From assembly GCA_021325635.1 (NCBI GenBank), contig JAJPGV010000039.1, positions 1 through 64,000 on the forward strand: a stretch of DNA of 64,000 nt. Direction: 5' to 3'. The notes under the pieces are model-generated. The model saw only the letters and a list, made by a program, of their open reading frames with translations, had not been told where the DNA came from and searched no databases. Of the stretch, positions 42,095 through 63,734 are shown in pieces (the stretch's first letter is position 1; each line of letters opens with the position of its first letter). This DNA comes from Chloroflexota bacterium (GTDB lineage Bacteria > Chloroflexota > JAJPGV01). The translations under genes were made by a program, and so were the position numbers.

Positions 42095-42292
42095 TCAGGG
42101 GGCCCGGAGCATGAAAATCTGCCGCCGAAACTGGATGATCTTGCGCACGATCTCGTCGGCTGACTCGAGAACCACCATGCGCTTGGTGTGAGCGAAGGTG
42201 ATCACCGTGTCAGGCGTCTCCTCCACGGTCTCAATGAGGTCGCTGCTGATGATCACCTTGGTGCCATTGAGGCGAGTGACGGCAATCATCAC
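42095..42292 (-). CDS. FlbD-like small protein
   Basis: A 65-residue protein matching the FlbD family: IAVTRLNGTKVIISSDLIETVEETPDT is near-canonical, then VITFAHTKRMVVLESADEIV. FlbD genes normally sit within flagellar operons, but no flagellar gene is in this window. The start is GTG 42292 or ATG 42289. It lies between the frameshifted BON gene and an acyl carrier protein. Its role outside flagella is unknown. Confidence 0.82.
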   Translation of the reverse strand: MMIAVTRLNGTKVIISSDLIETVEETPDTVITFAHTKRMVVLESADEIVRKIIQFRRQIFMLRAP

Positions 42293-42321
42293 AGTCGGCG
42301 TTGCATCGACCTACATGCGCC

Positions 42322-42582: not shown

Positions 42583-42783
42583 AGCTTTTCGGGCTCCTGC
42601 AGTCAAGGAAAAACCCGCCACCGGCGACCGCCGTTCTACAGCCTGCACGTCCTTCTCCATACCGGCCATGCTCAACACGCCGCCCGGCAGCCCGGCTGGA
42701 GTTGATCCGCTTTTTTCGTCCTGTTTACGCAGCAATCACGGCCTGGCGGCAACACTTGGAGCAAAAGGCTCGCGAGGCAGAAC

Positions 42784-43950: not shown

Positions 43951-44073
43951 TTTAGCGCCACAGTCACGCCTTATTCGCACGTTAACGGCGAATTCATCCG
44001 CTGTTTGTCGTGGTGCGGACAAGATGAAGAGAGAAGCCACACGCCTCAGAGGCGCCTTCTTAGGAGCATCGTC

Positions 44074-45204: not shown

Positions 45205-45359
45205 CCGCGGGCAAACAGCCGCAATCGGCACACCTGCTGCAGCGCGGGGGCTTGTCTCCCACGGGTTAGCCGGAGCTCCCATGAGAAGGCGAACGGAGAC
45301 CGGCGGGCCGTAAGAGCTGCATGGGATCAGTCGGGACGCGAACGAGCGGGCGAATGGGC
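45205..45359. other. intergenic region with GCGGGGGCTTG element
   Basis: A short non-coding stretch between two converging genes. It repeats at 45244-45254 the GCGGGGGCTTG core found in the hairpin at 19099-19109, again just past a gene end. Pairing is weaker here (GGG with CCC), so it may be an eroded copy of the same dispersed element or terminator. Confidence 0.4.
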
Positions 45360-46508
45360 TCAGGCTGCGCGCTGACGTTCGGCCTGGGGCCTGGCCTCGG
45401 CCAGGGCTGTCCTCAGCTCCATGAAACGGGCGATGTCGAGGAGCGTAAGCAGACCAAGGACTTGCTCCTCATCCATGACCACGACGTAGTCCGCGTGCCT
45501 GGAGCCCATCTCCGTCAGAACGTCGGTAAGAAGTCGCTCAGACGGAGAGACGATTTCCTGCTCGAGCGGATGCATGATAGCTCGCGCAGGCGTCGAGCCC
45601 CACAGCTCCCGAGCAACGCGCCGGACCTGTTTCAGATCGGCGATGCCGACCAACTGCGATGCCTGCATCACCAGCACAGCTCGCTCGCCGTACTGGAGCA
45701 TGGCAGCGGCTAGATCGGCGACGGCCGCGTCGCCTTCCACCACACGCGGCGAACCCTTGAGCAACTCGCCGACCTTCACCCCCACGAACGCCGATTGGAC
45801 GTCCATTGCATGAGTGGTTTGCTCGGTCGCCTGGATCAGAAACCAACCGATGAACGCTATCCACAGACCGCCCGCCACGTTTCCGGCAAACAGCTGCAGC
45901 ATGCCAAGGGCGATGAGCCCATAAGCAACGCCCTTGCCCGCCGAAGCCGCGATTCGGGTAGCGCGCGCCAAGTCCCGTGTGATACCCCACAGCACCGACC
46001 GCAGCACACGGCCACCATCAAGCGGAAAGCCGGGCAGCAGGTTGAAGGCCCCCAGGATGGCATTGATCAACGCCAGGTATTCCGCCATGGCCGTCAAGGG
46101 CAGACTCACCTGGGACGTCAGCAGCGACGCGGCGTACGCTACCCCCGAAACAACAAAGCTGGCGATGGGCCCCGCGATGGCAACCAGGAACTCCGTCGAA
46201 GCTCGCGTGGGCTCGCCCTTCAGCTCAGAGATGCCTCCGAAGACGAACATCGTTATGGAGTGCACCTCCAGGCCGTGGGCCCGCGCCACGAGCGAATGGC
46301 TCAGCTCATGAACGACGACAGAAGCGAATAGCAAGAGCGCGGAAACGACGGCCAGGATCCAGGTCGTTGGCCGATCGAGCAGGGGATAGCTCTCCGGGAA
46401 GTAGCCTGCGCCGAGGGACCAGGTAACCAGGGCAAAGATCAACAGCCAGCTGGCGTGAACCCGAATCTCGATGCCCCACACCCGGGCGATACGCAACGAA
46501 GCGCGCAT
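45360..46508 (-). CDS. site-2 intramembrane metalloprotease (M50) with CBS pair
   Basis: A 382-residue membrane protease. The catalytic VVVHELSHSLVAR (HExxH) is in an early helix. The third ligand motif NLLPGFPLDGGRVLRS (N-P-x-D-G-type) is in a later one, and five to six hydrophobic helices surround them. Residues about 240-370 form two CBS modules, predicted to sense AMP/ATP. It is probably a regulator that cuts membrane-bound anti-sigma factors under stress. ATG 46508 follows AAGGAA. It lies downstream of the Hsp20 gene on the same strand. Confidence 0.9.
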   Translation of the reverse strand: MRASLRIARVWGIEIRVHASWLLIFALVTWSLGAGYFPESYPLLDRPTTWILAVVSALLLFASVVVHELSHSLVARAHGLEVHSITMFVFGGISELKGEPTRASTEFLVAIAGPIASFVVSGVAYAASLLTSQVSLPLTAMAEYLALINAILGAFNLLPGFPLDGGRVLRSVLWGITRDLARATRIAASAGKGVAYGLIALGMLQLFAGNVAGGLWIAFIGWFLIQATEQTTHAMDVQSAFVGVKVGELLKGSPRVVEGDAAVADLAAAMLQYGERAVLVMQASQLVGIADLKQVRRVARELWGSTPARAIMHPLEQEIVSPSERLLTDVLTEMGSRHADYVVVMDEEQVLGLLTLLDIARFMELRTALAEARPQAERQRAA

Positions 46509-46659
46509 GTTCACTTCCTTCCCACCGCCTGAGGGCTAGGAGCATGCCCGGAATGCGATTCCCGGTGCATTCCCTCCGCCCGAAAAACGGATCAGCATTC
46601 GCAACGTCCGCTCCGACGGTGCCCCTCCCCCGCCGCCTTCGATCGTTCCCGGCATGGTC

Positions 46660-47148
46660 TTAGTCCTTGATAGCAAGCTTCTTCTGCGGCGGCGTAGGGC
46701 CCGACGACAGGAGGGTGACGGTGAGCATCCCATCCTTGAGCTTCGCCTCGGCCCTGTCGGCGTCCACGTCATTGGGCAGACGAAGCGTTCGGGTGAAAGA
46801 GCTGGAGTACTGCTCTCTCACAAAGTAGTCTCTCTCGGCGGGCTCCTGCGGCTCGGTGCGCAAGCGCCGTACGGTGAGGACGTCACCTTCGATCGTGGCT
46901 TCAATCTCCTCCGGCTTGGCGCCGGGCAGCCCAATCTTGACGACGATTCGGCCGTCTTCCTTGAACATGTCGACCGCCGGCTGCAGCTTGCCGGACGGCG
47001 GCTCGCACGGCAGCCAATCCCATGGCCACGAGGCGAGTCGCTCCATGACCTCCGCCAACCTTCGGATCTCTGTTCTCCACGGGTCCCGCATCAGACGATC
47101 GAGCTCCAGCAGCGTCAAACGTTCTCGCTTGGTGCTTGTGTCAGCCAT
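46660..47148 (-). CDS. Hsp20 / alpha-crystallin small heat-shock protein
   Basis: An ATP-independent holdase chaperone of about 162 residues that stops unfolded proteins aggregating. The alpha-crystallin domain runs from AVDMFKEDGRIVVKIGLPG through EGDVLTVRRLR to the signature FTRTLRLPNDVDADRAEAKLKDGMLTVTL. Here the expected A-x-x-x-n-G-V-L motif reads AKLKDGMLTV. AGGAGGT lies 12 bases before ATG 47148 and 3 bases before TTG 47157, so either start is possible. It is 28 bases after the Lon-like protease stop on the same strand, probably co-regulated. Confidence 0.93.
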   Translation of the reverse strand: MADTSTKRERLTLLELDRLMRDPWRTEIRRLAEVMERLASWPWDWLPCEPPSGKLQPAVDMFKEDGRIVVKIGLPGAKPEEIEATIEGDVLTVRRLRTEPQEPAERDYFVREQYSSSFTRTLRLPNDVDADRAEAKLKDGMLTVTLLSSGPTPPQKKLAIKD

Positions 47149-47176
47149 GTGTGCCAATCAACCTCCTTAGCCGGCC

Positions 47177-49777
47177 TCACGCGGCCGGATTGGCGCTGGG
47201 CTCACCGCGACCTCGCCCGGGAGCCGGCTGCCGCCGCCTCAGACGTGGCGTGCGTGGCCCGACCTCCGCCGGAGTGCGCTCGCGCAACTCGGGCTGCTCT
47301 ACCGGCCGGTTGTAGCTTTTCAAGCGCTCGGCGTATTCCCGCAGCCGGTGATCGACCGAGCCGTTGACGGTGCCGTCCGGCCACGTTTCATCGAGGTCAC
47401 GCCGGCCGGCAGGAACGCCAGCAAGAATCTCGATAGCTTGGTCCACCGTATCCACCGCCCAGACGTGGAAACGCCCCTCACGAGCGCTGTCGACGATGTC
47501 CTCCCTGAGCATCAGGTGGTTGACGTTCCGCCGCGGGATGATCACCCCCTGATCGCCGCTGAGACCCTTCGACTTACAGGTGTCGTAAAAGCCTTCGATC
47601 TTGCGGGTTACTCCCCCAACCGGCTGGACCTCGCCCAACTGATTCACCGAGCCGGTGATGGCAATGTCCTGCCGCAACGGCACGGTACCCAGCGCCGACA
47701 GGAGCGCGCACAGCTCGGCGCAGGAAGCGCTATCGCCCTCGATCTCGTCGTAGGTCTGCTCGAACGTGATACGCGCAGCCAGCGCCAGCGGCTTGTCTTG
47801 GGCATATCGGGCCATGAAGAACGTAGTCAGGATGAGGAAGCCCTTGTTGTGAATGCGGCCACTGAGCCTGGTCTCCCGCTCCAGGTTCATGACCCCCTCG
47901 CTGCCGAGGGATGTTTGAGCCGTAATGCGCACCGGCCGGCCGAAAGAGTAGTCGCCAACGTCCAGGACCGACAGCGCGTTGACCTGCCCAACGCGGGACC
48001 CGGACGTATCGATGAGCAGGGTCCCTTCCTCCATGAGGTCGCTCAGCTTCTCTTCGAACAGGTTGGAGCGGAAGGTCCGGGCCTCGATAGCCTGCCGGAC
48101 GTGTTCGGCAGTTACTATCTGGCCGCCCGCCTGGCCCGCCGCGTGACTGGCTTCCACAACCACGTCACCGATGTCCTTGAAGCGGGCGCTGAGCCGGCCC
48201 TGATGCTCGGTCAAGCGAGCGCCGTATTCGGCAATCTTGGCGACGGCGCTTCGGTCGAAATGCCTGAGCTTGAGCTCCCGAACCTGGCTGCTCACAAACC
48301 CGGCGTAGCTTGCCAGCTGCTCGGCATTGGTCTTGAGCTCATTGTCGAAGTCGGCCCGAACTCGGAAGAGCTTCGGAAAGTCCTCGTCGTAGAAATACAG
48401 GAGGTAGTAGATGCGCGGCAGGCCGATCAGGACGACCTTCACGTCCAGTGGAATGGGCTGCGGGCGCAGGGTCGCGGCCGGAAAGGCCATGTACTGCTCG
48501 CCCAGGTTCTCGATTCGCAGCTCGCCGGTCTGCAGAGCCCTCTTGAGTGTATTCCAGGCAAATGGGCTGCCCAGAACATCCAGCGCGTTGAGCACCAGGT
48601 AGCCGCCATTCGCCCGATGCAGAGCGCCGGCCTTGATCATCGCGAAATCCGTGACCATGGCCCCGAGCTGGCCGCGGTACTCGATCCGGCCCAGCAGGTT
48701 GTAGTACGTGGGGTTGGACTCGAACACCACGGGGGCGCCGGCCAGACCCTGGTTGTTGACCAGGACGTTCACCTGGTAGCGCCTGAAGACGGCGTCCTCA
48801 GCCTCACCACGCATCTGCTGGAGAAGCTGGGGCAGGGAACCCTGCTCCGACTCGCCGGCCTCACCCTGGCGCCAGATCTCCTCGTCATGAGTCACCAGGT
48901 CTTCCTGGGCCTGCAGCAGGTAATCGACAATCGCCGGTTGATCCTGGTACTTCTCCTGCAGGACCTTGATGAGCGGGGCAATCGTCGATCGCGCCACCTG
49001 CTGATGCAGCTCGGCCATGCGCTCATGGGCGTCCTTTTCGAACTGCCGGATCTGCTCCCACACGTCCATGAAGGCTCGACTGATCTCCTCGCCATGCTGG
49101 AGGAGGCCGGCACGCTTGTCCTCCGGCAGACTATCCAGCTCTTCAGGCTTCATCGGCCGGCCGTGCACGATGGGGATGACAGCCGGACCGCCGGGAGTGA
49201 TGGTGATGCCCAGGCCTTCCTTTTCCGCCTGCTCACTGAGGCCGTGCAGCAGCCGGTCGCGGGGCTCGGTAACCGCTCTGTGCACCTCTTCTTGCGCCCG
49301 CCGGTACTCACGGCTTTCGAACACGCGCCGAAGGTCTCGCCGCACGTTAGCAATCAGTTGCCGCACGTCCTCCTGGAACACCACCGCTCGGCCCGGTGGC
49401 AGGCTGATGGCGGCAGGTTGAGCCGGGTCCTTGAAGTTGAAGACGTAGCACCAGTCGTCAGGGGCCGGGCGGCGAGCTGCCAGCTGGCGAAGATACAGCG
49501 CCGCGGTGGTCCTGCGGCCGGTTCCGGAGGGCCCGGCGACGAAAAGATTGAAGCCCGGCGCCTCGGTGGCGAGGCCAAAGGACAGCGCGCTGAGTGCACG
49601 CGGCTGACCCACCGTCCCATCCAGGGGCGGTACCTGCTCGGTGGTGTCGAAGGGAAAGGCCGTCGGATCGCACGTCCAGCGCAGCTGCGCCGGCGAAACT
49701 TCGAGCGGACGGGTATCCACTGCGTCTGGGGTCGGTTGCTGGCCGTTTGGCGACGGCGGGCGGGCGGACCTGTCCAT
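47177..49777 (-). CDS. Lon-family ATP-dependent protease (LonC/YcbZ-like, AAA_32)
   Basis: An 866-residue ATP-dependent serine protease of the non-canonical Lon group. The C-terminal S16 domain has EGDSASCAELCALLSALG (catalytic Ser about 683) and GGVTRKIEGFYDTCKSKGL (Lys about 726). The 43-residue spacing is the same as in E. coli Lon. The Walker A region reads GPSGTGRRTT (82-91), with Arg where Lys is expected. The family middle has FESNPTYYNLLGRIEYRGQLG and GYLVLNALDVL. The C-terminal 40 residues are basic and Pro-rich. It is the first gene of the Lon-Hsp20-M50 unit. Confidence 0.88.
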   Translation of the reverse strand: MDRSARPPSPNGQQPTPDAVDTRPLEVSPAQLRWTCDPTAFPFDTTEQVPPLDGTVGQPRALSALSFGLATEAPGFNLFVAGPSGTGRRTTAALYLRQLAARRPAPDDWCYVFNFKDPAQPAAISLPPGRAVVFQEDVRQLIANVRRDLRRVFESREYRRAQEEVHRAVTEPRDRLLHGLSEQAEKEGLGITITPGGPAVIPIVHGRPMKPEELDSLPEDKRAGLLQHGEEISRAFMDVWEQIRQFEKDAHERMAELHQQVARSTIAPLIKVLQEKYQDQPAIVDYLLQAQEDLVTHDEEIWRQGEAGESEQGSLPQLLQQMRGEAEDAVFRRYQVNVLVNNQGLAGAPVVFESNPTYYNLLGRIEYRGQLGAMVTDFAMIKAGALHRANGGYLVLNALDVLGSPFAWNTLKRALQTGELRIENLGEQYMAFPAATLRPQPIPLDVKVVLIGLPRIYYLLYFYDEDFPKLFRVRADFDNELKTNAEQLASYAGFVSSQVRELKLRHFDRSAVAKIAEYGARLTEHQGRLSARFKDIGDVVVEASHAAGQAGGQIVTAEHVRQAIEARTFRSNLFEEKLSDLMEEGTLLIDTSGSRVGQVNALSVLDVGDYSFGRPVRITAQTSLGSEGVMNLERETRLSGRIHNKGFLILTTFFMARYAQDKPLALAARITFEQTYDEIEGDSASCAELCALLSALGTVPLRQDIAITGSVNQLGEVQPVGGVTRKIEGFYDTCKSKGLSGDQGVIIPRRNVNHLMLREDIVDSAREGRFHVWAVDTVDQAIEILAGVPAGRRDLDETWPDGTVNGSVDHRLREYAERLKSYNRPVEQPELRERTPAEVGPRTPRLRRRQPAPGRGRGEPSANPAA

Positions 49778-50071: not shown

Positions 50072-50380
50072 AAGCCACCTTCTCCTGTTGCTTCGAGCCT
50101 AGGAACGAGGAAGCCAACACCCGGCAAATGACACGAAAACGTTGCATAAACGGCGAACGCACTGGGGCTTCACGGTCGCCGCTGTCCCTCCCTGCTCGCG
50201 CCGGACGTGCCCGCACAAATCGGGCCCTGCTCGTTGGCCCGTGCATGGTCATCCCCCTCTCTGCCGGCAGCAGGACCGGCTTTAGCACCCGTTTGCACGT
50301 CCTTGACGGGAAGTTCGCGCGGCGCTGCCTACCGTACTCCTGTAGGCCTTGCCTCACATCAACCAGCAGGTGCAGACGTC
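50072..50380. other. 309-bp promoter region upstream of the CO dehydrogenase operon
   Basis: Non-coding divergent DNA between the small protein and the CooF gene. TTGACG at 50303-50308 may be a -35 box, but no convincing -10 lies 16-18 bases on. CCCG/CGGG dyads flank it. I did not find a CooA/CRP-like TGTCA-N6-TGACA site. Regulation of the operon therefore cannot be read directly. Confidence 0.4.
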
Positions 50381-51121
50381 ATGACCATGGGGCTTCGATC
50401 CGAGCGCCAAAGGCGGGCGCCACGCAGCGTGTTCGTGAACCCCGAGCACTGCATTGGCTGCCGCCAGTGCGAGTTCGCCTGCGCTGTCGAGCACTCGCGG
50501 AGCAACGACCAGTTCGCCGCCTTCCTCGAGGATCCTGTGCCTCGCACGAGGGTGCACGTCGAGGCGGGGGACGTGCCCTCGACCTCGTTCCCGAACCGCT
50601 GCCGCCATTGCGATCCGGCTCCCTGCCAGCAAGTCTGCCCGACCGGAGCCGTCAGCCGCGACGACGAGATGGGCGTTGTCCTCATCGAGGCTACGCGCTG
50701 CATCGGCTGCGCCATGTGCGCCGTCGTCTGCCCGTTCGACGTCATCAGCTTCTATCCGCTGGCCGAAGGGCCCGATCCACAGACCGCCGTCGCCGTCAAG
50801 TGCGACGGTTGTATCGACCGACAGCGCCGCCACGAGGTTCCGGCTTGCGCCGAAGCCTGCAAAGTGGAAGCGCTGGTGTACGGCGAGCTGAACGAGCTGA
50901 TCCGGTCCGGCCGGGTGCGCGAAACCCGCGCGGTGCTAGGGGCGGCGGACCTCACTCACCAGCCAGCCGCCGACCCGCTCGCCGGCTGGCACGCCTGGGG
51001 TGATGAAATCCTCACGGTCGCGGCCGCGGCGCACATGCCGGGGCACAACCACCATAACGGGCACGGCAATGGGCACGGCCCGGCCAAGAGCACTAACAAG
51101 AGCGATGGAGGTTCCCGATGA
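50381..51121 (+). CDS. cooF: CooF-like 4x[4Fe-4S] electron-transfer protein with His-rich tail
   Basis: A 246-residue ferredoxin-like partner of CO dehydrogenase that carries electrons away from CooS. Four cluster motifs are seen: CIGCRQCEFAC, CRHCDPAPCQQVCP, CIGCAMCAVVCP and CDGCIDRQRRHEVPACAEAC. This is the DmsB/CooF arrangement. The C-terminus carries an unusual His/Asn/Gly run (HMPGHNHHNGHGNGHG) suited to bind Ni or other metal, reminiscent of the separate nickel protein CooJ. AGGTG precedes ATG 50381. Its stop overlaps cooS as ATGA, so it opens the operon. Confidence 0.9.
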   Translation: MTMGLRSERQRRAPRSVFVNPEHCIGCRQCEFACAVEHSRSNDQFAAFLEDPVPRTRVHVEAGDVPSTSFPNRCRHCDPAPCQQVCPTGAVSRDDEMGVVLIEATRCIGCAMCAVVCPFDVISFYPLAEGPDPQTAVAVKCDGCIDRQRRHEVPACAEACKVEALVYGELNELIRSGRVRETRAVLGAADLTHQPAADPLAGWHAWGDEILTVAAAAHMPGHNHHNGHGNGHGPAKSTNKSDGGSR

Positions 51122-53064
51122 GCACCGTCAGCCGCGACGGCCACCACAGCGGCCGGCTCACAATCAACGAAGACGCCCGACGCATGATCGACGTCGCCCG
51201 CGAGGAAGGCATCGAGACCGTGTGGGATCGTCTTCAGGCCCAGCAGCCCCAGTGCGGCTACTGTTCCCTGGGGGTCTCATGCCGCAACTGCTCTATGGGC
51301 CCATGTCGCATCGACCCCTTCGGGGCCGGACCGCAAAAGGGCGTTTGCGGCGCCGACGCCGACGTTATCGTCGCCCGCAACCTGGGCCGAACCATCGCTG
51401 CCGGCTCGTCGTCCCATTCCGACCACGGCCGCGACATTCTGGAAGTCTTCCTGGCCACGGCCAAAGGTGAGACGACCGGCTATCGCATTGCCGATGAAGC
51501 GAAGCTGCTGCGCCTCGCCGCCGAATTCGGCATCCCCAGCGACGGTCGCTCGGTCAGCGACGTAGCCAGCGACCTCGCGGACCGCCTCTTCGAGGACTTC
51601 GGCAGCCGCAAAGAGCACCTGTCGTTCGTGGAGCGCGCGCCGGCCAAACGGCGCGAAGTGTGGGAGAAGCTCGGCATCGTCCCTCGCGGCATCGATCGTG
51701 AGAACGTCGAGATGCTGCACCGCACGCACATGGGCGTTGACAATGATTATGTCAACATCTTGCTCCATGGCCTGCGCACTGGTCTGTCGGATGGCTGGGG
51801 CGGCTCGATGATCGCTACGGAGCTGTCCGACATCATGTTCGGCACGCCAAGCCCACGCATGTCCGAAGTGAACCTGGGCGTGCTTCGGTCCGACCAGGTC
51901 AACGTGGCCATGCACGGGCACAATCCCCTCCTGTCCGACGTGATCGTCAGCGCCGCCCAGGACCCCGAGCTGCTCGAGCTGGCCCGTTCCTATGGCGCTA
52001 CCGGTATCAACGTCGTCGGCCTGTGCTGCACGGGCAATGAACTCCAGATGCGGCGTGGCGTGCCGATAGCCGGCAACCACCTGATGCAGGAGCTGGTGAT
52101 GATGACCGGCGCCCTGGAAGCCATGGTCGTGGACTACCAGTGCATCATGCCTTCGGTCACCGACGTGGCCAAGTGCTACCACACCCAGATCATCTCCACC
52201 GCCGACAAGGCCAAGTTCCCCGGGGCGACGCACGTGTCCTTCGATCCCCACCGCGGCGCAGAGATCGGGAAGCAGATCGTGCGCATGGCTGTTGAGGCCT
52301 ATCCCAATCGCAACCCGGATCGCGTGCGCATTCCAGTCAAGCCGGTGCAGATGATGGCCGGGTTCTCGGTGGAAGCCATCCTCGGAGCCCTGGGCGGAAC
52401 CCCCAAGCCCCTGGTGGATGCCATCGCCGGCGGAGCCATCCGGGGAGCGGTCGCCGTGGTTGGCTGCAGCAACCCCAAGGTTCCCCAGGACTATGGCCAC
52501 GTGGAGCTCACCCGCCAGCTCATCGAGCACGACGTGCTGGTGATCGTGACGGGCTGCGCCGCTGTGGCCAACGGGAAGGCCGGCCAGATGCTGCCGGAGT
52601 CGGCCCGCATGGCCGGGCCGGGCCTGCGTGGAGTGTGTGAGGCGCTCGGCATCCCGCCGGTGCTGCACATGGGCTCGTGTGTCGACAACAGCCGCGTGCT
52701 GGTACTGGCCGGGGCGCTGGCCAGCTACCTGGGAGTCGACATCGATCAGCTGCCCCTGGCCGGAGCCGCGCCGGAGTGGTATTCGGAGAAGGCCGTGGCC
52801 ATCGGCGCCTACGTCGTCGCCAGCGGGGTCAAGACCGTGCTGGGCGTGCAGCCGCCGATCTTCGGCAGTCCGCATGTCGTCGACCTGCTGGCCAACGGGC
52901 TCGAGGGCGTCACTGGCGCGACCTTCGCCATCGAGCCCGACCCGGCCAAGGCGTCGCTGCTGATTCGTCGACACATCGAGGCCAAGCGCAAAGCGCTCGG
53001 CCTGCCATACGAGGAAGTGGAGGAGATGGCCCCGGCGGTCGAGGCCGTGGGGACCGGAGCGTAA
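51118..53064 (+). CDS. cooS: anaerobic carbon-monoxide dehydrogenase catalytic subunit (Ni-Fe)
   Basis: Oxidises CO with water to CO2 and two electrons at a [Ni-4Fe-4S] C-cluster. The 648 residues contain all expected ligands by homology: His266, Cys303/304, Cys342, Cys450, Cys480 and Cys521, plus Lys558 and the proton-transfer HSDH near 100. B-cluster Cys are 55, 58, 63 and 77. At the D-cluster, Cys46-x2-Cys49 replaces the usual C-x7-C, the form linked to a [2Fe-2S] D-cluster. ATG 51118 overlaps cooF; cooC follows by 5 bases. It needs anaerobic or micro-oxic Ni maturation. Confidence 0.96.
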   Translation: MSTVSRDGHHSGRLTINEDARRMIDVAREEGIETVWDRLQAQQPQCGYCSLGVSCRNCSMGPCRIDPFGAGPQKGVCGADADVIVARNLGRTIAAGSSSHSDHGRDILEVFLATAKGETTGYRIADEAKLLRLAAEFGIPSDGRSVSDVASDLADRLFEDFGSRKEHLSFVERAPAKRREVWEKLGIVPRGIDRENVEMLHRTHMGVDNDYVNILLHGLRTGLSDGWGGSMIATELSDIMFGTPSPRMSEVNLGVLRSDQVNVAMHGHNPLLSDVIVSAAQDPELLELARSYGATGINVVGLCCTGNELQMRRGVPIAGNHLMQELVMMTGALEAMVVDYQCIMPSVTDVAKCYHTQIISTADKAKFPGATHVSFDPHRGAEIGKQIVRMAVEAYPNRNPDRVRIPVKPVQMMAGFSVEAILGALGGTPKPLVDAIAGGAIRGAVAVVGCSNPKVPQDYGHVELTRQLIEHDVLVIVTGCAAVANGKAGQMLPESARMAGPGLRGVCEALGIPPVLHMGSCVDNSRVLVLAGALASYLGVDIDQLPLAGAAPEWYSEKAVAIGAYVVASGVKTVLGVQPPIFGSPHVVDLLANGLEGVTGATFAIEPDPAKASLLIRRHIEAKRKALGLPYEEVEEMAPAVEAVGTGA

Positions 53065-53069
53065 GCCAG

Positions 53070-53948
53070 ATGTGCGACGTCGACGAGCGGCATCAGCACG
53101 CGGTTGATGCCGCCATAGCAGGCGGCGAAGGGCTGCGCACGGTGGTCGTGGGCAAGGGGGGAGTGGGGAAATCGACGATCACCGCGCTGCTGGCCCGCAT
53201 TCTCGCGCGGCGAGGAGCCCAGGTGCTGGCTGTCGACGCTGATGAGCAGCGTAACCTCGCAGCTACCCTGGGCCTCGCCGCCGCCGCCGCCGCAATCGTT
53301 CCCCTGGCCGAACAGGCCGACTACGTCGAAGAGAAGACGGGCGCTCGGCCGGGTGAAGGGTCGGGCGGCATACTGCGGCTCAATCCCGACGTCTCGGACG
53401 TCGTCGAGCGCCTGGGCGTTCCGGCGCCAGATGGCGTCCGCTTGCTGGTCATGGGCACGGTGCGCCGCGCCGGAAGCGGCTGCCTCTGTCCGGAGCACTC
53501 ACTGTTAGCGGCAACCGTGGGCGGCATGAGCCTGCGCCGAGGTGAAGTGGTGCTGATGGATACCCACGCCGGCGTAGAACATTTCGGCCGCGCGCTGGCC
53601 CGCGGCTTCGATCGGGCGCTCGTGGTAGTCGATCCCACCTTCAACGCCATGCACGTTGGCGTCGAAGCGGCGCGTCTCTCGATCGACCTCGGAATCCATG
53701 ACGTCCGACTGCTGGTCAACCGCGTGCGTGGGCCCGACGACCTGTGCCGCGCTCTGGACAACATCAGCCGAGCGGGTGACTTTGCCTTCCACTCGCTGCA
53801 CGCGCTGCCCTACGACGAGCTAGCCATGGCGAGTGAGCCGGCAGTCGACGAGCTGCTGCGCGGGTCGGATCTGGCCGGCGCCGTTGGCGCGCTGGCGGCC
53901 GAGCTGGTTCCGGCAGCCACCACTCCCATCCTCCAGGCGGTGCGCTGA
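53070..53948 (+). CDS. cooC: CO dehydrogenase maturation ATPase CooC
   Basis: A MinD/SIMIBI-class ATPase that aids nickel insertion into CooS. The 292 residues have the deviant P-loop GKGGVGKST (28-36), DADEQRNLAATLG and the family C-x-C metal motif in SGCLCPEHSLL (Cys138, Cys140), which joins the dimer around a metal ion. An N-terminal extension of about 20 residues precedes the P-loop. The gene starts 5 bases after cooS and its stop overlaps the next gene as TGATG, placing it within one translation unit with its substrate enzyme. Confidence 0.93.
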   Translation: MCDVDERHQHAVDAAIAGGEGLRTVVVGKGGVGKSTITALLARILARRGAQVLAVDADEQRNLAATLGLAAAAAAIVPLAEQADYVEEKTGARPGEGSGGILRLNPDVSDVVERLGVPAPDGVRLLVMGTVRRAGSGCLCPEHSLLAATVGGMSLRRGEVVLMDTHAGVEHFGRALARGFDRALVVVDPTFNAMHVGVEAARLSIDLGIHDVRLLVNRVRGPDDLCRALDNISRAGDFAFHSLHALPYDELAMASEPAVDELLRGSDLAGAVGALAAELVPAATTPILQAVR

Positions 53949-55201
53949 TGCGCGCGGTGATTATTGGCACGGGTCCGGCGGGCATCACCGCCGCCCTCAC
54001 CCTGCGGCAGCTCGATCCTTCCGGCGCGGTAACCGCGCTGTCGGCCGAGCCGTACCCGCCCTACTCGCCGCCGGCGATAGCCGACCATTTCCTGACCGGC
54101 CGCGATCAGACGCTGTACTGGCAGGGCAGGGACGTTGCTCAGCGCCTAGGCATCGAGGAGCGGCGCGAAGCTTGCGTCGCGGCGGTGGACAGCTGCAACC
54201 GCGAGGTCGTCCTGGCGGACGGCGACCGTATCCGGTACGAAAGATTGATCGTCGCTTCGGGCAGCCGGCTGCACGCGCCCTTAACAGGCGCGGAGCTGCC
54301 GGGCGTGTACGACTTCAAGTCGCTGCGAGTGGCCACCGAGATGATTGGTCGGGTGCGCTCCGGCGAGGTCAAGAGCGCGCTGATCGTGGGCAACGGCTTT
54401 ATCGGCATCGAGCTAGCCCTGCTGCTGGCCGATCTCGGCGTCGACGTGACCATCATCGGCCGCAGGTCGTGGGTCATGCCTCGCGTATTGGATCCTGAGA
54501 CCTCCGCCGTGGCCGAAGCAGCCCTGGAGGCGCGAGGCGTGACCCTCCGCCTGGGCCTGGAAGCTGAGGCATTCATAGGCGATGGCGGCGTCACCGGGGT
54601 GCGCCTAGCCGGAGGAGAAGTCGTCACCGCCGGGATGTACATCGCCGCCACCGGCGTGAAGCCGCACGTCGAGTTCCTTGGCGGCTCGGACGTGACGGCC
54701 AGGTGGGGCGTGGAGGTCGACGACCGGCTGCGCACAACCGATCCCAACATCTTCGCCGCCGGCGACGTGACCGAAGCCGCCGACCGCCTCACCGGCGAGC
54801 CATACGTGCACGCCATCTTCCCCAATGCCGTGGCCCAGGGCCGTGTCGCCGCCCTGAACGCCCTGGGGCGAGACATACGTTACGAGGGAGCTGAGGCGAT
54901 GAACAGCCTCAAGCACCTCGGAGTGCCCATCGTCGCCATGGGCAGCACCGACCACCCGGATGAGATCCTGCGCCGTCATGACGGCGCGGGGCTGCGCTCG
55001 ATTTACCTGCGCGACGGCCAGATCGTGGGCGCGCAGCTCGCCGGGGACATCAGCGCCGCGGGCATCTATCGCTCGCTCATGCTCCGCCGGGCGAAGGTGC
55101 GCCCGTTCGGCAAGCGCATCATCGAGCCCGGCTTCGGCATGAGCCAGATTGTTTGGGACGCAATGCAGCCAGGCCGGATCCATGCCTGTGCCGCAGCCTG
55201 A
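53948..55201 (+). CDS. NAD(P)/FAD-dependent oxidoreductase of the CODH operon
   Basis: A 417-residue two-dinucleotide-fold flavoprotein like NADH:rubredoxin or ferredoxin reductases. The FAD motif is AVIIGTGPAGITAAL, the NAD(P) motif SALIVGNGFIGIEL and the second FAD contact IFAAGDVTEAA. Such FNOR genes accompany cooF/cooS in several anaerobic CODH clusters, where they are proposed to pass CO electrons to NAD(P)+ or to oxygen-protective reductases. ATG 53948 shares a base with the cooC stop. The last 20 bases overlap the transhydrogenase alpha gene. Confidence 0.9.
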   Translation: MRAVIIGTGPAGITAALTLRQLDPSGAVTALSAEPYPPYSPPAIADHFLTGRDQTLYWQGRDVAQRLGIEERREACVAAVDSCNREVVLADGDRIRYERLIVASGSRLHAPLTGAELPGVYDFKSLRVATEMIGRVRSGEVKSALIVGNGFIGIELALLLADLGVDVTIIGRRSWVMPRVLDPETSAVAEAALEARGVTLRLGLEAEAFIGDGGVTGVRLAGGEVVTAGMYIAATGVKPHVEFLGGSDVTARWGVEVDDRLRTTDPNIFAAGDVTEAADRLTGEPYVHAIFPNAVAQGRVAALNALGRDIRYEGAEAMNSLKHLGVPIVAMGSTDHPDEILRRHDGAGLRSIYLRDGQIVGAQLAGDISAAGIYRSLMLRRAKVRPFGKRIIEPGFGMSQIVWDAMQPGRIHACAAA

Positions 55202-56411
55202 AGCCGACCCGGTGGGACAGCCGGGAGCAAGTCCGGTGCGAATCGCCGTCCTGAAGGAGACCCGCCCGGGCGAACGGCGAGTCGCCCTGGTGCCCGGCAC
55301 GGTCGACAAGCTGCGCCAGCTCGGAGCCGACGTCCGGATGCAGGCCGGAGCCGCCGAGGGCATCAGTCTGCCCGACGCGGCGTTCCACAACGTGGCCTTC
55401 GGCCAGGACCCGCGCAGCCTCGTAGGCGACGCGGACATCGTCCTGGCCGTTCAGCCACCGGCGGTTGAAGTGGTCAACGCTATGAAGCCAGGCGCGATCC
55501 TGATCTCCTTCGTCTACGCTGAAAGAGAGCCCGCGCTGGTCCAGGCTCTGTGCGCGCGGCGCGTCACCTGCTTCGCCATGGAGCTGGTTCCGCGCTCCAG
55601 CCGGGCGCAAGCGGTCGACGCGCTTTCCAGTCAGGCCGCCCTGGCCGGCTACTACGCGGTGCTGCTGGGAGCTACCAAGCTCACCCGCATTCTGCCGATG
55701 ATGACCACGGCTGTTGGCGCCCTGCGTCCGGCAACCGTGCTGGTCATGGGCCTCGGGGTGTGCGGGCTGCAAGCCGTCGCCACGGCTCACCGCCTGGGCG
55801 CCATCGTCGAGGGCTACGACGTTCGCCCCGAAACGCGGGGGGAGGTGCAGTCGCTTGGAGCGAGATTCGTCGACACCGGCATCGATGCCCGAGGTGAAGG
55901 CGGTTACGCCCGCGAGCTGACGAGCGACGAGCGCCAGCACGTTGCCGACGTACTGACCAGGCACATCCAGCAGGCCGACCTCGTCATCACCACGGCCGCC
56001 GTGCCTGGCCGGCCGGCCCCGCGGCTCGTCAGCCGGCCCCAGGTGGAAGGCATGAAGCCAGGCTCGGTCATCGTGGACCTGGCCGCCGAGGGTGGCGGGA
56101 ACTGCGAGTGCTCGCGTCCCGACGAGGTTGTCCGGGTAGGCCAAGTCACCGTCCTGGCTCCCTCGAACGTTCCCTCACTGCTGGGCGAGCACGCCAGTGA
56201 GCTCTATGCCAAGAACCAGGTCAACCTGCTCCAGCTGATGCTCCGCAATGGCCGCATCGACATCGACTGGTCCGATGACATCCTGGCCGGCAGCGTGCTC
56301 ACCCACGATGGGGAGATCAAGAACCGCACTGCGCGGCAGGCGCTGGAGCCGCGCCGGAGTGAGCCGGTGCAGGCACCCGACCACGTGCAGCCAGGGCTTG
56401 CTCGATCGTGA
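55182..56411 (+). CDS. pntAA: NAD(P) transhydrogenase alpha subunit, NAD(H)-binding part (PntAA)
   Basis: Domain I of the proton-translocating transhydrogenase, binding NAD(H) on the cytoplasmic side. It has about 409 residues; the conserved start is VRIAVLKETRPGERRVALVP. The nucleotide motif is VLVMGLGVCGLQAVATAHRLGA, and GYDVRPETRGEVQSLGARF is an RPETREQV-like loop. It lacks the membrane helices found in single-chain PntA; these are in the next gene, the three-gene layout. ATG 55182 is used; GTG 55236, behind GGGAG, is a fair alternative that would remove a Pro-rich leader. It overlaps the flavoprotein gene. Confidence 0.92.
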   Translation: MPVPQPEADPVGQPGASPVRIAVLKETRPGERRVALVPGTVDKLRQLGADVRMQAGAAEGISLPDAAFHNVAFGQDPRSLVGDADIVLAVQPPAVEVVNAMKPGAILISFVYAEREPALVQALCARRVTCFAMELVPRSSRAQAVDALSSQAALAGYYAVLLGATKLTRILPMMTTAVGALRPATVLVMGLGVCGLQAVATAHRLGAIVEGYDVRPETRGEVQSLGARFVDTGIDARGEGGYARELTSDERQHVADVLTRHIQQADLVITTAAVPGRPAPRLVSRPQVEGMKPGSVIVDLAAEGGGNCECSRPDEVVRVGQVTVLAPSNVPSLLGEHASELYAKNQVNLLQLMLRNGRIDIDWSDDILAGSVLTHDGEIKNRTARQALEPRRSEPVQAPDHVQPGLARS

Positions 56412-56421
56412 GGAGGCATTG

Positions 56422-56742
56422 ATGACGCTGCAATTGACAATCACTGGCTTCGTGGCCATCTACATCTTCATGCTGGCGGCCTTCACCGGGTATGAGGTCA
56501 TCAGCCGGGTTCCGGCCATCCTGCACACGCCGCTGATGTCCGGATCCAACTTCGTCCATGGCATCGTGGTCGTGGGTGCACTGTATGCCCTTCTCAATGC
56601 CACGTCCCTCACCGAACAGATCATCGGCTTCGTGGGCGTCGTTCTCGGAGCGGCCAACGCCGCCGGTGGCTACGTCGTGACCATCCGCATGCTGGAGATG
56701 TTCAAGGTCAGCCATTCCCGGACCGGCGAGAAGGTAACGTGA
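56422..56742 (+). CDS. pntAB: NAD(P) transhydrogenase alpha subunit, membrane part (PntAB)
   Basis: A 106-residue small membrane subunit with about three transmembrane helices (VAIYIFMLAAFTGYEVISRVP, GIVVVGALYALLNA, QIIGFVGVVLGAANAAGGYVV), corresponding to the first part of domain II that forms the proton channel. AGGAGG lies just upstream of ATG 56422. It is 10 bases after pntAA. The stop overlaps the GTG start of pntB as GTGA. Mild Arg/Lys at the C-terminus suggests an inside location. Confidence 0.93.
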   Translation: MTLQLTITGFVAIYIFMLAAFTGYEVISRVPAILHTPLMSGSNFVHGIVVVGALYALLNATSLTEQIIGFVGVVLGAANAAGGYVVTIRMLEMFKVSHSRTGEKVT

Positions 56743-58163
56743 ACCTCGGCTGGCTGGTCGCCCTGGTCGACGTCGTGGTCGCCTTCCTTCTCATCTTCGG
56801 CCTCAAGCAGATGGCCTCCCCGGTCACTGCGCGATCCGGCATCGGCTTAGCCGGCGCGGGCATGCTCGCCGCCGTGCTGGCCGCTCTGCTGTATGTCCTC
56901 GATGTGGCGCCGGACGCCCAGCCACACGTGACCGCGAACGCGATTCTCGCCGCGCTCGCCCTGGCTCTAGGGCTGGGCTGGGCGTGGTGGGCCGGCTCCC
57001 GGGTTCCCATGACCGCCATGCCGCAGATGGTCGCCATCTACAACGGCATGGGCGGCGGGGCCGCGGCGGCGATTGCCGCCACCGAGCTGCTCGGTGCCGG
57101 CCAGGGGGCCAGCACTCGGCTGGCCATAGCGGTTGTTGGCGGTTTGATCGGCTCCGTGTCGCTGTCCGGATCAGTCGTGGCCTGGGCCAAGCTGGACGAG
57201 CGGCTGAAGCGACCGTGCCGAATCAAGGGCCAGCAGATGCTCAATGCGCTGGTGATGCTGGCTGCGATCGTCCTTGGCTTCAGCACGATCCTCGTCATGC
57301 CGCGCAGCCCTGGCCTGGCGGCGCTGTTCTTCTTCGCAGCGCTGCTCTTTGGGGTGCTCATGACGCTGCCCATCGGCGGGGCCGATATGCCCGTGGTGAT
57401 TTCGCTGTACAACGCCTGCACCGGTGTGGCGGTGGGGCTCGATGGCTACGTCCTCCAGAACCCTGCGCTGATGGTTGCCGGCACGATTGTGGGCTCAGCC
57501 GGCACGCTGCTCACCGTGCTCATGGCACGAGCCATGAACCGCTCCGTTCGCAACGTCCTGTTCGCGAACTTCGGCGCGACCGGCAGCGCAGCACAAGCCG
57601 GTGCCGTGGGCGCTCTCAAACCGGCCGAGGCCAGCGACGCGGCCATTTTCATGCGCTATGCCCGCAAAGTCATCGTCGCGCCCGGCTACGGGCTAGCCGT
57701 CGCGCAGGCTCAGCACAAGCTCTACGAGCTGGTCAAGCTGTTGCAAGCCGCCGGCGTGGAAGTCAAGTTCGCCGTGCACCCGGTGGCGGGACGCATGCCC
57801 GGACACATGGACGTGCTCCTCGCCGAGGCGGGCGTACCCTACGACCTCATTTTCGAGCTCGATGACATCAACGACGAGTTCGACGATGCCGACGTCGCTC
57901 TCGTGATCGGCGCCAACGACGTCGTCAATCCGGCGGCCCGCGTGGACCGATCGTCACCGATTTACGGCATGCCGATCTTGAACGTGGACCATGCGCACCA
58001 GGTCTACGTGATCAAACGCGGGCAGGGGAGAGGCTACTCGGGCATCGAGAATGCCCTGTTCTACGCGCCCAATTGCGCCATGGTCTACGGCGACGCCCAG
58101 GCCGTCCTGGTCAAGATGATTCAAGCCATCAAAGATCTCACCGCGGAGCCGCAGGCGGCGTGA
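56739..58163 (+). CDS. pntB: NAD(P) transhydrogenase beta subunit (PntB)
   Basis: The 474-residue subunit with the rest of the membrane domain (about eight helices) and the cytoplasmic NADP(H) domain. The latter has VIVAPGYGLAVAQAQHKLYEL and FAVHPVAGRMPGHMDVLLAEA, then DDADVALVIGANDVVNPAA and the RGQGRGYSGIEN loop that closes over NADP. Complete with PntAA/PntAB, it can make NADPH from NADH using the proton gradient. GTG 56739 overlaps pntAB. It ends the CO operon; 66 bases then separate it from a hypothetical gene. Confidence 0.95.
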   Translation: MNLGWLVALVDVVVAFLLIFGLKQMASPVTARSGIGLAGAGMLAAVLAALLYVLDVAPDAQPHVTANAILAALALALGLGWAWWAGSRVPMTAMPQMVAIYNGMGGGAAAAIAATELLGAGQGASTRLAIAVVGGLIGSVSLSGSVVAWAKLDERLKRPCRIKGQQMLNALVMLAAIVLGFSTILVMPRSPGLAALFFFAALLFGVLMTLPIGGADMPVVISLYNACTGVAVGLDGYVLQNPALMVAGTIVGSAGTLLTVLMARAMNRSVRNVLFANFGATGSAAQAGAVGALKPAEASDAAIFMRYARKVIVAPGYGLAVAQAQHKLYELVKLLQAAGVEVKFAVHPVAGRMPGHMDVLLAEAGVPYDLIFELDDINDEFDDADVALVIGANDVVNPAARVDRSSPIYGMPILNVDHAHQVYVIKRGQGRGYSGIENALFYAPNCAMVYGDAQAVLVKMIQAIKDLTAEPQAA

Positions 58164-60408: not shown

Positions 60409-60660
60409 ATGGAGCAACCACACAACACCGTCGTGCTGGACGTACGTGACGACCTACGAGAGGGCCGCGAGCCGTTCCAGCGGATCATGATGACCGCCAA
60501 CAGCCTCGCGCCCGACCAGGCGATGGAGCTGTGGGCCCTGTTCGAGCCTAAGCCGCTGTTTGCCGTCATGACGGGGATGGGCTTTGAATACGAGGCAGAA
60601 GCGCAGCCCAACGGCGATTGGCGCGTGCGTTTCTTCCGGTCGGGTCACGTGCAGGCGTAG
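60409..60660 (+). CDS. DUF2249 domain protein
   Basis: An 83-residue protein that matches the DUF2249 pattern: VVLDVRDDLREGREPFQRIM, then LAPDQAMELWALFEPKPLFAVMTGMGFEYE and the closing GDWRVRFFR. DUF2249 proteins are TusA-fold-like and frequently sit beside denitrification and low-oxygen genes. GGAGGG stands six bases before ATG 60409. Seven bases separate it from the next gene, opening an operon through to 63734. Confidence 0.83.
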   Translation: MEQPHNTVVLDVRDDLREGREPFQRIMMTANSLAPDQAMELWALFEPKPLFAVMTGMGFEYEAEAQPNGDWRVRFFRSGHVQA

Positions 60661-60667
60661 GATCCCG

Positions 60668-62008
60668 ATGAGCCAGCCTGTCACGACGCCCACCATGCCG
60701 GATCCGGCCCAGCCACTGCCGAGCATGCCCGCGGGACCGCTGCTGTCCGGGCTCAGCACCTCCCGCGCTGCGTCGCTCAGCCTGCCGCTGCGCTACATGG
60801 TGGCGGGCCTGGCGTTCGCCGTGCTGGCATTCGGCTTCGCGCTGGCCTACTCGCCGTCATTCCTAGGCACGGTGTTTCTCACGCCCCGCCTTCTGGCCGT
60901 TACCCACCTCACGGCCCTGGGCTGGCTGACCATGGTCGCGATGGGCGCCTTGTACCAGTTCATTCCCGTCGTGCTCGACGTACCGATTTTCAGCGAGCGC
61001 CTCGGCAAGGTGCAGTTCTACCTGTACCTGGCAGGAGTGCTGGGATTGACGGTGGAGATGGGCACGGGCCGGACGCAGGTCATGGCCTGGCCGGCGGGCT
61101 TGTTGGTGCTGGCCGTTGGCGTGTTCCTCTACAACGCCGCTCGCACGCTGGCGCGTGTGGAGCGCTGGCCGCTCACAGGCTGGTACATCCTTGCGGCTCT
61201 GACGTCGCTGGCCCTGGTAGTGACGGTCGGGTTCGCCCTGGCCCTGAACCTCACCCTGGGGTTCCTGCCGTTGAGCCAGCTGGCGTTCGTCGAAGCCCAT
61301 GCGCACCTGGCAGCGCTGGGATGGCTAGGCCTGCTGGTCATGGGCGTTTCCTACAAGCTGACGCCGATGTTCGCGCTGTCCCACCCCTTCAATGAGTGGC
61401 GCCTTGGAAGGCCCATCTTCATCCTGCTGACCGCCGCGGTCGTTGGGCTGTTCGTCAGCTTACTGCTGCGGCTCGGACAAGCGCCGCTGCTGGGATGCTG
61501 GTCGGTGGCCGCGATCGGGATTGGCTTGTACGCCTGGGACTACGCCACGATGCTGCGGGTACGCCGCCGGCGGCCCATTGACCTAACGCAGCAGCACAAC
61601 ATCGCCGGCCTGGGCGGACTGCTGCTCACGACCCTGCTCGGCCTAGCCTTGATCCTGGTGCCGGCCGAGACCGACCTACATCCGCGGCTGCAGCTGGCCT
61701 ACGCGGCCGCAAGCCTGGGCGGGTGGATCGGGCTCACCACGCTGGGGCAGCTGTACAAGATTGTGCCCTTCCTGGTCTGGACTCACCGCTTTGCCCCGAG
61801 GATGGGCAAGGCGCCGGTTCCCCTCCTCAAGGACCTCTATCCTCAGGTGCTGGCACGGGCCGGCTTCGGCGCTCTGCTGGCCAGCCTGACCATAGCTCTT
61901 GCCGGCATCCTCGCCGGCTACCTTCCAGCTATCCAGGCCGGTTTTGGCCTGTGCACGCTGGGCGCCGCCCTTACGGCGGTCAATCTCATTCGGGTGGTGT
62001 TGCGATGA
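60668..62008 (+). CDS. polytopic haem-copper oxidase subunit I-like / NnrS-like membrane protein
   Basis: A 446-residue protein with about twelve hydrophobic helices. Two His-rich helices, VTHLTALGWLTMVAMGALYQF and VEAHAHLAALGWLGLLVMGVSYKLTPMF, resemble the haem-ligating segments of NnrS and of cbb3/nitric-oxide-reductase catalytic subunits. A third conserved part is LTQQHNIAGLGGLLLTTLL. Not all ligands of a working binuclear centre are visible, so it is more likely NnrS-like or a haem-binding relative. It is co-transcribed with DUF2249 and MIP18-type genes. Confidence 0.65.
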   Translation: MSQPVTTPTMPDPAQPLPSMPAGPLLSGLSTSRAASLSLPLRYMVAGLAFAVLAFGFALAYSPSFLGTVFLTPRLLAVTHLTALGWLTMVAMGALYQFIPVVLDVPIFSERLGKVQFYLYLAGVLGLTVEMGTGRTQVMAWPAGLLVLAVGVFLYNAARTLARVERWPLTGWYILAALTSLALVVTVGFALALNLTLGFLPLSQLAFVEAHAHLAALGWLGLLVMGVSYKLTPMFALSHPFNEWRLGRPIFILLTAAVVGLFVSLLLRLGQAPLLGCWSVAAIGIGLYAWDYATMLRVRRRRPIDLTQQHNIAGLGGLLLTTLLGLALILVPAETDLHPRLQLAYAAASLGGWIGLTTLGQLYKIVPFLVWTHRFAPRMGKAPVPLLKDLYPQVLARAGFGALLASLTIALAGILAGYLPAIQAGFGLCTLGAALTAVNLIRVVLR

Positions 62009-62307
62009 TCGACCAAGATGCCTTGATGGCAGCGCTCAAGAACGTCTATGACCCTGAGCTGGGAGTGAACGTCGTCGACCTCGGGCTGATTTATGACGTC
62101 GAGCAGCATGGCGGCAAGATCACGGTAGCCATGACCATGACCACCCCCGGCTGCCCGCTGCACGAGAGCATGCTGCGCGGCGTCGGCGATGCGCTGAACG
62201 GCGTTCCCGGCGTCGAGCGCGTGGAAGTGCGGTTGGTGTGGGATCCGGTGTGGACCCCGGAGCGCATCACGCTGGCAGGTCGCAAGGCGCTCGGCTGGGC
62301 GGCCTGA
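62005..62307 (+). CDS. MIP18/DUF59 iron-sulfur cluster assembly family protein
   Basis: A 100-residue SufT/MIP18-fold protein. The hallmark VYDPELGVNVVDLGLIYDVE comes first, then TMTTPGCPLHESM with its conserved Cys and VEVRLVWDPVWTPERIT. It contributes to maturation of Fe-S proteins or the Paa-type machinery. The gene starts inside the stop of the upstream membrane protein (ATGA) and its stop shares a base with the following gene (TGATG). All three are thus translationally coupled. Confidence 0.92.
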   Translation: MIDQDALMAALKNVYDPELGVNVVDLGLIYDVEQHGGKITVAMTMTTPGCPLHESMLRGVGDALNGVPGVERVEVRLVWDPVWTPERITLAGRKALGWAA

Positions 62308-63734
62308 TGCCGGCGGGCATGGTGCCGCGACGGCGCCATGAGCCGTATCAGTACTTCCTGAAGGCCAGCCTGCTCCTGGCGATGACCATCGGCTGGCTGC
62401 TGGGCGCCATCGAGCTGAGCGCCATCGCGTTCCATGACGCCTCGCCTTCGCTGGCTGCCCGGCTGATCTCGCCAGCCCTGTTCCAGGTCCATGGCCAGAG
62501 CCAGATCCTTGGCTGGGTGGGCCTGTTCATCATGGGCATTTCCTACCAGGTCGTTCCGCGCCAGCGGCGAGTAGCCATCCACGCCTCGACGATGGCATAC
62601 GTAGTCCTCGCGCTGATGGTCGCAGGGATCGTGCTGAGGGCCATCTCCCAGCCCCTGGCTGCAGCCTCCGTGCTGTTTCGCGGCCTTACCGTCCTCTCGG
62701 CGCTGCTCGAGCTGGCCGGCCTTGGCCTGTTCATGGGGGGCTTGATCAAGGGTCGCGTCATGGCAGACAGCATCCAGGGGCCGGAGCGCTTCAGCCGGGC
62801 AGCGCTGCAGTGGTTTGCCGTGGCACTGCTAATCAACCTGGGCACGACCGTTTACCTGGCGCTGCAAGCGGGCTCGGTCGTGCCCGACTGGCTGGACAGG
62901 CCCCTGATCGTGGTTGAGCTATTCGGCTTCGTCACGTCCATGATCTTCGGTGTCAACGCCCGGAATTTGCCGCTGTTCATGCGTGTGAGACCCGCGTCCT
63001 CCGACGATCTGCTGGCCGTGCTGAGGCTGCTGCCGCCGAGTGTCGCGCTGTGCGCCGCAGGACAGGCCGTGTCGGCGATTTCACTGGGTGGCGGCCGAAT
63101 GATGGCGGCCGCGGGCTGGGCTGGGCTGCTGGTCATCGCCGGGCTGTACGTCCGGGCCGTCGGCCTCCTTGGACCCCGAACGCGCCAGATCGTGACCGCC
63201 GGCGAATCAGGCTGGTACGAAGCCTACGTGGTGGGCGCGTACGCCTGGCTCGGGCTTGGGCTCCTCCTGGAGCTGCTCACCTCGCTGGCGCAGCTCGGGC
63301 GGCTGGGACTGCCGGCGGAAGACCTGTTCCTCGCGGGTCTGCACGCCGTCACCATCGGCTTCATCTCCATGATGATCATGGGCATGGCCGCACGGATCGT
63401 CCCGGCGTTTGCCGCTACCCGGCTGCACAGTCGATCGCTGTTCGTCTTGACCTGGTGGTGCCTCATGCTGGGCACGCTGCTGCGCGTGCCAGCGCAGGCG
63501 CTGTACAGCTCGACGGGTGGCGCGATCGGCCCGCTGCTTGGCTTATCGGGCATCGTCCAGCTGGCTGGCATGATGCTGTTTACCTGGAACCTGTGGCGGA
63601 CGCTGGCTGGCAGCGTCACGGATCGGGCCGCACTGCTAGCCCCCCGAAGCAATGCGCTCCAACCGCCCCACGTCCAGCAGCGCGGTCGTGCCTCGACCGA
63701 TGCGGACGACACCCTGCCGCTCCATCTCTCGTAA
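62307..63734 (+). CDS. NnrS-like membrane protein
   Basis: A 475-residue protein with about twelve helices. HGQSQILGWVGLFIMGISYQVVPR and GLHAVTIGFISMMIMGMAARIVPAF carry the histidines that are typical of the NnrS family, haem-copper proteins linked to nitric oxide tolerance and denitrification. The C-terminal 40 residues are hydrophilic (APRSNALQPPHVQQRG). They overlap by 99 bases with the end of the converging Crp/Fnr gene, so the exact C-terminus deserves care. It follows the MIP18 gene as TGATG. Confidence 0.75.
   Translation: MPAGMVPRRRHEPYQYFLKASLLLAMTIGWLLGAIELSAIAFHDASPSLAARLISPALFQVHGQSQILGWVGLFIMGISYQVVPRQRRVAIHASTMAYVVLALMVAGIVLRAISQPLAAASVLFRGLTVLSALLELAGLGLFMGGLIKGRVMADSIQGPERFSRAALQWFAVALLINLGTTVYLALQAGSVVPDWLDRPLIVVELFGFVTSMIFGVNARNLPLFMRVRPASSDDLLAVLRLLPPSVALCAAGQAVSAISLGGGRMMAAAGWAGLLVIAGLYVRAVGLLGPRTRQIVTAGESGWYEAYVVGAYAWLGLGLLLELLTSLAQLGRLGLPAEDLFLAGLHAVTIGFISMMIMGMAARIVPAFAATRLHSRSLFVLTWWCLMLGTLLRVPAQALYSSTGGAIGPLLGLSGIVQLAGMMLFTWNLWRTLAGSVTDRAALLAPRSNALQPPHVQQRGRASTDADDTLPLHLS

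Follow-up and report, generated by a model that had tools for sequence, protein, structure and literature searches.

An apparent operon joining a nickel CO dehydrogenase cassette to a proton-coupled transhydrogenase in an uncultured Chloroflexota bacterium

The window, the whole 64,000-nucleotide stretch analysed here (positions 1 to 64,000 of contig JAJPGV010000039.1), is part of a 96 kb contig in the 4.64-Mb, 96% complete genome of an uncultured Chloroflexota bacterium. It harbours a chain of seven genes (Table 1), the first four of which encode a ferredoxin-like protein with four 4Fe-4S cysteine motifs (CooF), a nickel CO dehydrogenase (Ni-CODH; CooS), a predicted Ni-insertion ATPase (CooC) and an FAD/NAD(P) oxidoreductase (FNOR). 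The remaining three specify a transhydrogenase (Pnt), comprised of an NAD(H)-binding subunit representing domain I (PntAA), a membrane subunit (PntAB) and a membrane and NADP(H)-binding subunit (PntB). An earlier note on this DNA had placed all seven genes on a single strand at about these positions, and all were recovered there with their catalytic motifs intact.

Table 1. Genes of the chain, with positions in the window and the principal basis for each assignment
Gene	Position	Strand	Basis
cooF	50381..51121	+	Fer4_11 65.5 bits, Fer4_7 and others (Pfam); adjoins cooS in relatives too
cooS	51118..53064	+	TIGR01702 711 bits, above the curated family cut-off of 478; best PDB match D. vulgaris CODH 6b6v
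cooC	53070..53948	+	Pfam CbiA 55 bits; motifs; between cooS and FNOR in relatives too
FNOR	53948..55201	+	Pfam Pyr_redox_2 171 bits; residue comparison; structure model; fold matches
pntAA	55236..56411 (start revised from ATG 55182)	+	AlaDh_PNT_C 201 bits, AlaDh_PNT_N 112 bits; PDB 9hjx/4izh Thermus alpha1
pntAB	56422..56742	+	Pfam PNTB_4TM 104 bits; PDB alignment 4o9p_C
pntB	56739..58163	+	Pfam PNTB 537 bits; PntB tree; plasmid homologues 66-67%

Five of the junctions between these genes are as the same note had described them: an ATGA overlap between CooF and CooS (51118-51121), 5 nt between the CooS stop and the ATG of CooC, a TGATG shared by CooC and FNOR (53946-53950), 10 nt between the PntAA stop and the ATG of PntAB, and a GTGA joining PntAB to PntB (56739-56742). 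The 20-base overlap that had been proposed between FNOR and PntAA did not stand. Other PntAA proteins align only from about residue 19-20 of the protein starting at ATG 55182, a codon with no Shine-Dalgarno match, and GTG 55236 is preceded by GGAG 8 nt upstream; for these reasons PntAA most likely starts at the GTG, so that 34 nt, including a ribosome-binding site, separate it from the FNOR stop. Translational coupling along the entire chain, which had also been claimed, is consequently doubtful at this coo/pnt border. Co-transcription of the seven genes is predicted to be likely, since terminator-like sites are at chance level (4 found vs 4.3 expected). No promoter-like site was found; the 34-nt gap could house a processing site or an internal start.

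The next gene upstream encodes a divergent LonB protease, and no gene for an RcoM or CooA CO sensor was found beside the operon. An FNR-like site upstream at 50349-50362 has two mismatches and is at chance level, while CooA-like sites there are below chance. The LonB gene belongs to a LonB-Hsp20-M50/CBS group that faces the operon from the other strand, with USP and baeRF10 genes near, and genes similar to NnrS and COX1 lie downstream of the operon; this neighbourhood suggests a stress or low-oxygen setting. The upstream genes (window 40607-49777, encoding USP, baeRF family 10, an M50-CBS protease, Hsp20 and a LonB-like protease) resemble a hypoxia or dormancy gene set. Neighbours of this kind (USP, Hsp20, Lon, M50) recurred at other coo or pnt loci only as two or three weak matches to single genes, so the link to a stress island is local.

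Alignment of CooS with the D. vulgaris CODH found conservation at the positions which we take to be the cluster ligands, namely H266, C304, C342, C450, C480 and C521 of the C-cluster, the D-cluster CxxC (C46, C49) and the B/D-cluster cysteines. CooC is of the MinD type, with the deviant Walker A motif GKGGVGKST and a CLC (CxC) motif. The closest PDB entries to CooS are the D. vulgaris and Thermococcus-type CODHs, which have been called clade E (PMC13056359), making the protein clade-E-like by its closest structures. Among same-phylum sequences, one CooS (L003:1474-3345) is without one D-cluster cysteine (QCGFGETG) and is encoded in the order CooS-CooF-FNOR with no CooC. CooF ends in a histidine-rich tail (HMPGHNHHNGHGNGHG, window 51000-51118) that is nearly unique among related CooFs, one of which (L044) has a short HHGHH end; it is possible that the tail may bind nickel, in an operon that has neither CooJ nor CooT.

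The transhydrogenase is also intact, with domains I, II and III all represented by matches above cut-off (AlaDh_PNT_N, AlaDh_PNT_C, PNTB_4TM and PNTB) and by solved homologues. It shares the three-subunit composition and gene order of the Thermus thermophilus enzyme (PDB 4o9u), to which PntB is 61% identical, and retains equivalents of its channel histidine, Asp202, Thr214 and Arg254; the Thermus system differs in having no CODH association and a glutamate (Glu221) where the window Pnt has aspartate. The channel histidine is H46 of PntAB, aligned in 4o9p_C with His42 of Thermus alpha2, the residue given a role in the proton channel (PMC5742237). The closest Pnt found was that of Rhizobiaceae and Klebsiella plasmids (PntB 66-67% identical), where the same compact three-gene unit lies ahead of dehydrogenase genes, although the partners are succinate-semialdehyde dehydrogenase with AdhP, or acetoin reductase, rather than CODH. 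These plasmid units (L210-L215) have the appearance of a mobile redox module. Overall the window Pnt is of a Thermus/plasmid type, at 61-67% identity, with the Pnts of genomes carrying related coo cassettes at 39-53%. Its pntB is the sole PNTB gene of the host, and a search for a second pnt copy elsewhere in the genome returned none.

Conservation of gene order was assessed in 80 related loci from one scan (L022-L101; CooS 62-82% identical, fetched flanks up to 10 kb), the closest genomes compared being from the same phylum. The earlier note had made this a test of its proposal, and the two halves behaved differently: in relatives no closer than phylum, the gene order persists for coo but not for pnt. 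CooF-CooS-CooC-FNOR, four genes adjacent on one strand in the window, is kept in Acidimicrobiia, other Actinomycetota, some Chloroflexota, Gammaproteobacteria and a Myxococcales bin; all four genes were found in 29 loci (in 22 of these the sequence extends at least 1.5 kb past the cassette), and only a few have another order. For instance, cassettes of Acidimicrobiia, Chloroflexota, Nitriliruptoraceae and Gammaproteobacteria (L022-L054) share the order and have CooS proteins 73-82% identical to that of the window, but their pnt genes lie elsewhere in the genome rather than in the fetched flanks, and encode PntB proteins with just 39-50% identity to that of the window. Similarly, pnt is on other contigs in three same-phylum genomes with cassettes (G178, G234 and G130), and additional members of the order have no pnt beside the cassette. 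PNTB is present somewhere in 35 of 44 cassette genomes, with an identity to the window protein that never exceeds 50%. None of the 80 loci has pnt beside coo within the fetched flanks, and the join was found in one genome only.

The association of CODH with FNOR is that of a known, mobile cassette, and the assertion that a complete Pnt in the same apparent operon lacks precedent was borne out both by these loci and by the papers on CODH contexts that were consulted. Transhydrogenase is not mentioned in those papers, of which at least one lists only neighbours found in >10% of a clade, and no CODH-plus-transhydrogenase operon of this kind was described in the literature searched; the CODH-FNOR-Pnt operon is apparently unreported so far. 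Among the closest known systems is GSU2098-2095 of Geobacter sulfurreducens (PMC4703632), comprised of the same four gene types and likewise lacking hydrogenase and ACS genes, but differing in gene order, in having RcoM upstream and in that its description includes no transhydrogenase genes. CODH/ECH and CODH/ACS (Wood-Ljungdahl) clusters also combine a Ni-CODH with CooF or CooC; by contrast, there are no hydrogenase genes within 50381-58163, and a search for ACS (PF03598) drew a blank in the genome, which is 96% complete. As the genome has no RuBisCO either, autotrophy through CODH/ACS or the Calvin cycle was rejected. The host does encode two strong COX1 proteins (haem-copper oxidases) and complex I including NuoH, in agreement with the earlier description of its other genes as respiratory. 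It also carries an aerobic form I CoxL at C49:87764-90034 (L196), with the AYRCSFR motif and 1268 bits against a cut-off of 991, such that both CODH types co-occur in one genome; the combination of Mo- and Ni-CODH has been reported in Parageobacillus sp. G301, and is uncommon in its family (PMC13077300).

CODH/FNOR has been regarded as a putative CO-oxidising unit, the FNOR of which is without biochemical study (PMC6344411). The best fold matches of the window FNOR are 8c0z_E, BphA4 and relatives, and in its structure model (mean pLDDT 90) the second strand of the second Rossmann domain, residues 166-171, ends at G171 and is followed by R172-R173. This G-R-R aligns with Glu175-Thr176 of BphA4, and NAD+-type enzymes have glutamate there. 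Glu175 has been described as biasing the enzyme towards NAD through repulsion of the NADP phosphate (PMC7397466), and E175A/T176R/Q177G variants of BphA4 are present in the PDB; similarly, changing Asp-Val to Ala-Arg at the equivalent place in the S. mutans NADH oxidase results in a preference for NADPH (vmax/Km 960 vs 130; PMC3995211). Because G-R-R replaces the glutamate, the window FNOR is predicted to be an NADP+-type enzyme. Across the FNORs compared, a set in which genuine cassette proteins are counted together with more remote ones, the strand ends in Glu or Asp in 22 cases and in a small residue plus Arg in 25; the window FNOR and almost all those of Acidimicrobiia belong to the second group. 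Most Acidimicrobiia cassette FNORs have G-R-R itself, and some cassette FNORs are acidic and of the NAD type. This natural switch between Glu and Gly-Arg-Arg among CODH-associated FNORs (L022-L101) partly follows lineage, and amounts to a prediction of nucleotide preference for many lineages. A link between FNOR type and the presence of pnt in a genome was set aside as confounded by phylogeny. In extracts of Geobacter, with its comparable CooS-CooC-CooF-FNOR operon, CO reduces NADP+ faster than NAD+ (PMC4703632).

We regard the seven genes as one CO-oxidising redox operon in which CO would yield NADPH and Pnt would run in reverse, generating NADH and exporting protons, a reading that we hold tentatively and at a little under an even chance. 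CooS, matured by CooC, would oxidise CO to CO2, and electrons would pass through CooF to FNOR, with NADP+ the most likely acceptor; this route from CO to NADPH is the best-supported part of the mechanism. PntAA-AB-B would couple hydride exchange between NADPH and NADH to proton movement, and with CO keeping NADPH/NADP+ high the net reaction would most likely be NADPH + NAD+ -> NADP+ + NADH with protons exported, the NADH then being respired through complex I and the haem-copper oxidases. Without CO, Pnt could run forward to NADPH. The likely role would be to help the cell survive when O2 is low or energy is limiting. The earlier proposal of a single CO-to-NAD(P)H system thus holds for the gene content of one apparent operon but not for Pnt as the supplier of NADPH, as an NADP-type FNOR would give NADPH from CO without it, and Pnt is more plausibly an outlet to NADH. 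Given such an FNOR, reverse operation would be the simplest reason for the pairing.

The reverse reaction has precedent in E. coli, whose transhydrogenase, when driven by NADPH, translocates protons and in liposomes can power ATP synthesis (PMC8551311). The arrangement suggests a way to save energy from CO, and by pairing CODH/FNOR with a proton-coupled NADPH/NADH exchanger the operon makes energy conservation by this unit directly testable. In its strictest form, a CO-fuelled proton pump without hydrogenase, an NADP-specific FNOR would drive Pnt in reverse with one proton exported per CO and NADH delivered to complex I; we consider this rather doubtful. Were it true, CO oxidation would have a site of energy coupling other than CODH/ECH and Rnf, and this in an organism that is also equipped with the aerobic Mo-Cu CODH. 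More broadly, the finding points to the use of Ni-CODH in respiring soil and sediment lineages.

The same operon might instead work with Pnt in the forward direction, as the earlier note envisaged, with CO reducing NAD+ or both nucleotides and the proton motive force spent on converting NADH to NADPH for biosynthesis or stress defence. In most bacteria the forward direction is considered normal for Pnt, a single-copy PNTB implies that this enzyme must serve the whole cell, and the acidic residues of some cassette FNORs would suit such a scheme. The window FNOR, however, has G-R-R rather than Glu, so that CO electrons would arrive as NADPH and a forward Pnt would be redundant for CO; we judge forward operation unlikely, while giving it appreciable weight.

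The histories of the two halves bear on whether they are functionally linked at all. CooS falls inside an Actinomycetota clade of 19 rows (SH-aLRT 100), and the partner of PntB is the Thermus thermophilus protein (100/100), with every Chloroflexota and Actinomycetota Pnt of the set placed elsewhere, in a tree with long branches and few Thermus-type rows. The two modules were probably acquired separately, and the Thermus/plasmid type of the Pnt together with its single-copy PNTB identifies the operon, on phylogenetic grounds, as a lineage-specific fusion of two transferred, known modules. Separate acquisition means that the neighbourhood alone could be recent and neutral: a mobile coo cassette may have landed upstream of a mobile pnt module within a region of stress genes, the two sharing transcription at most and having no particular connection in function. 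The divergent USP, M50-CBS, Hsp20 and LonB genes, the unrelated dehydrogenases adjoining the plasmid Pnt and the absence of the synteny from the 80 related loci all fit such an event. Against it, the genes are closely spaced and all point the same way, and both halves are equal and native in composition, which fits retention as a unit; we consider neutrality improbable. Tetranucleotide profiles of the window agree with those of eight other host contigs at r 0.98-0.99 when taken in 16-kb pieces and at 0.96-0.97 for the shorter pieces covering coo and pnt, donor-like Acidimicrobiia loci match host contigs less well (0.86-0.89), and GC3 is equal in the two halves (coo 0.78-0.85, pnt 0.82-0.84). 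As far as composition shows, the operon is neither an assembly artefact nor the product of a contaminating Acidimicrobiia contig.

It is very improbable that the CODH feeds a distal Hyf/group-4-hydrogenase-like complex on contig C24, at about 106-114 kb (L195:5039-12567, minus strand), with CooF electrons going to H2 and FNOR and Pnt as side outlets: that complex has two Mrp-type antiporter subunits, a HyfC-like NuoH, a NuoB/ferredoxin protein and a NuoC/D-like large subunit bearing CGAC and CYAC motifs, and a CODH working with a distal ECH has been reported in Carboxydothermus pertinax (PMC6557876), but the operon has no hydrogenase gene, FNOR is conserved in the cassette, and Geobacter with a similar cassette made no H2 from CO in extract (PMC4703632). 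An integrase gene lies a few kb from the Hyf-like complex. The same contig carries, at C24:144464-145138, a duplicate (75-80% identical) of the COX1-like/NnrS-like pair at 60584-63734 of the window, and at the very start of the window (36-106) there is an Rfam group II intron match of 44 bits.
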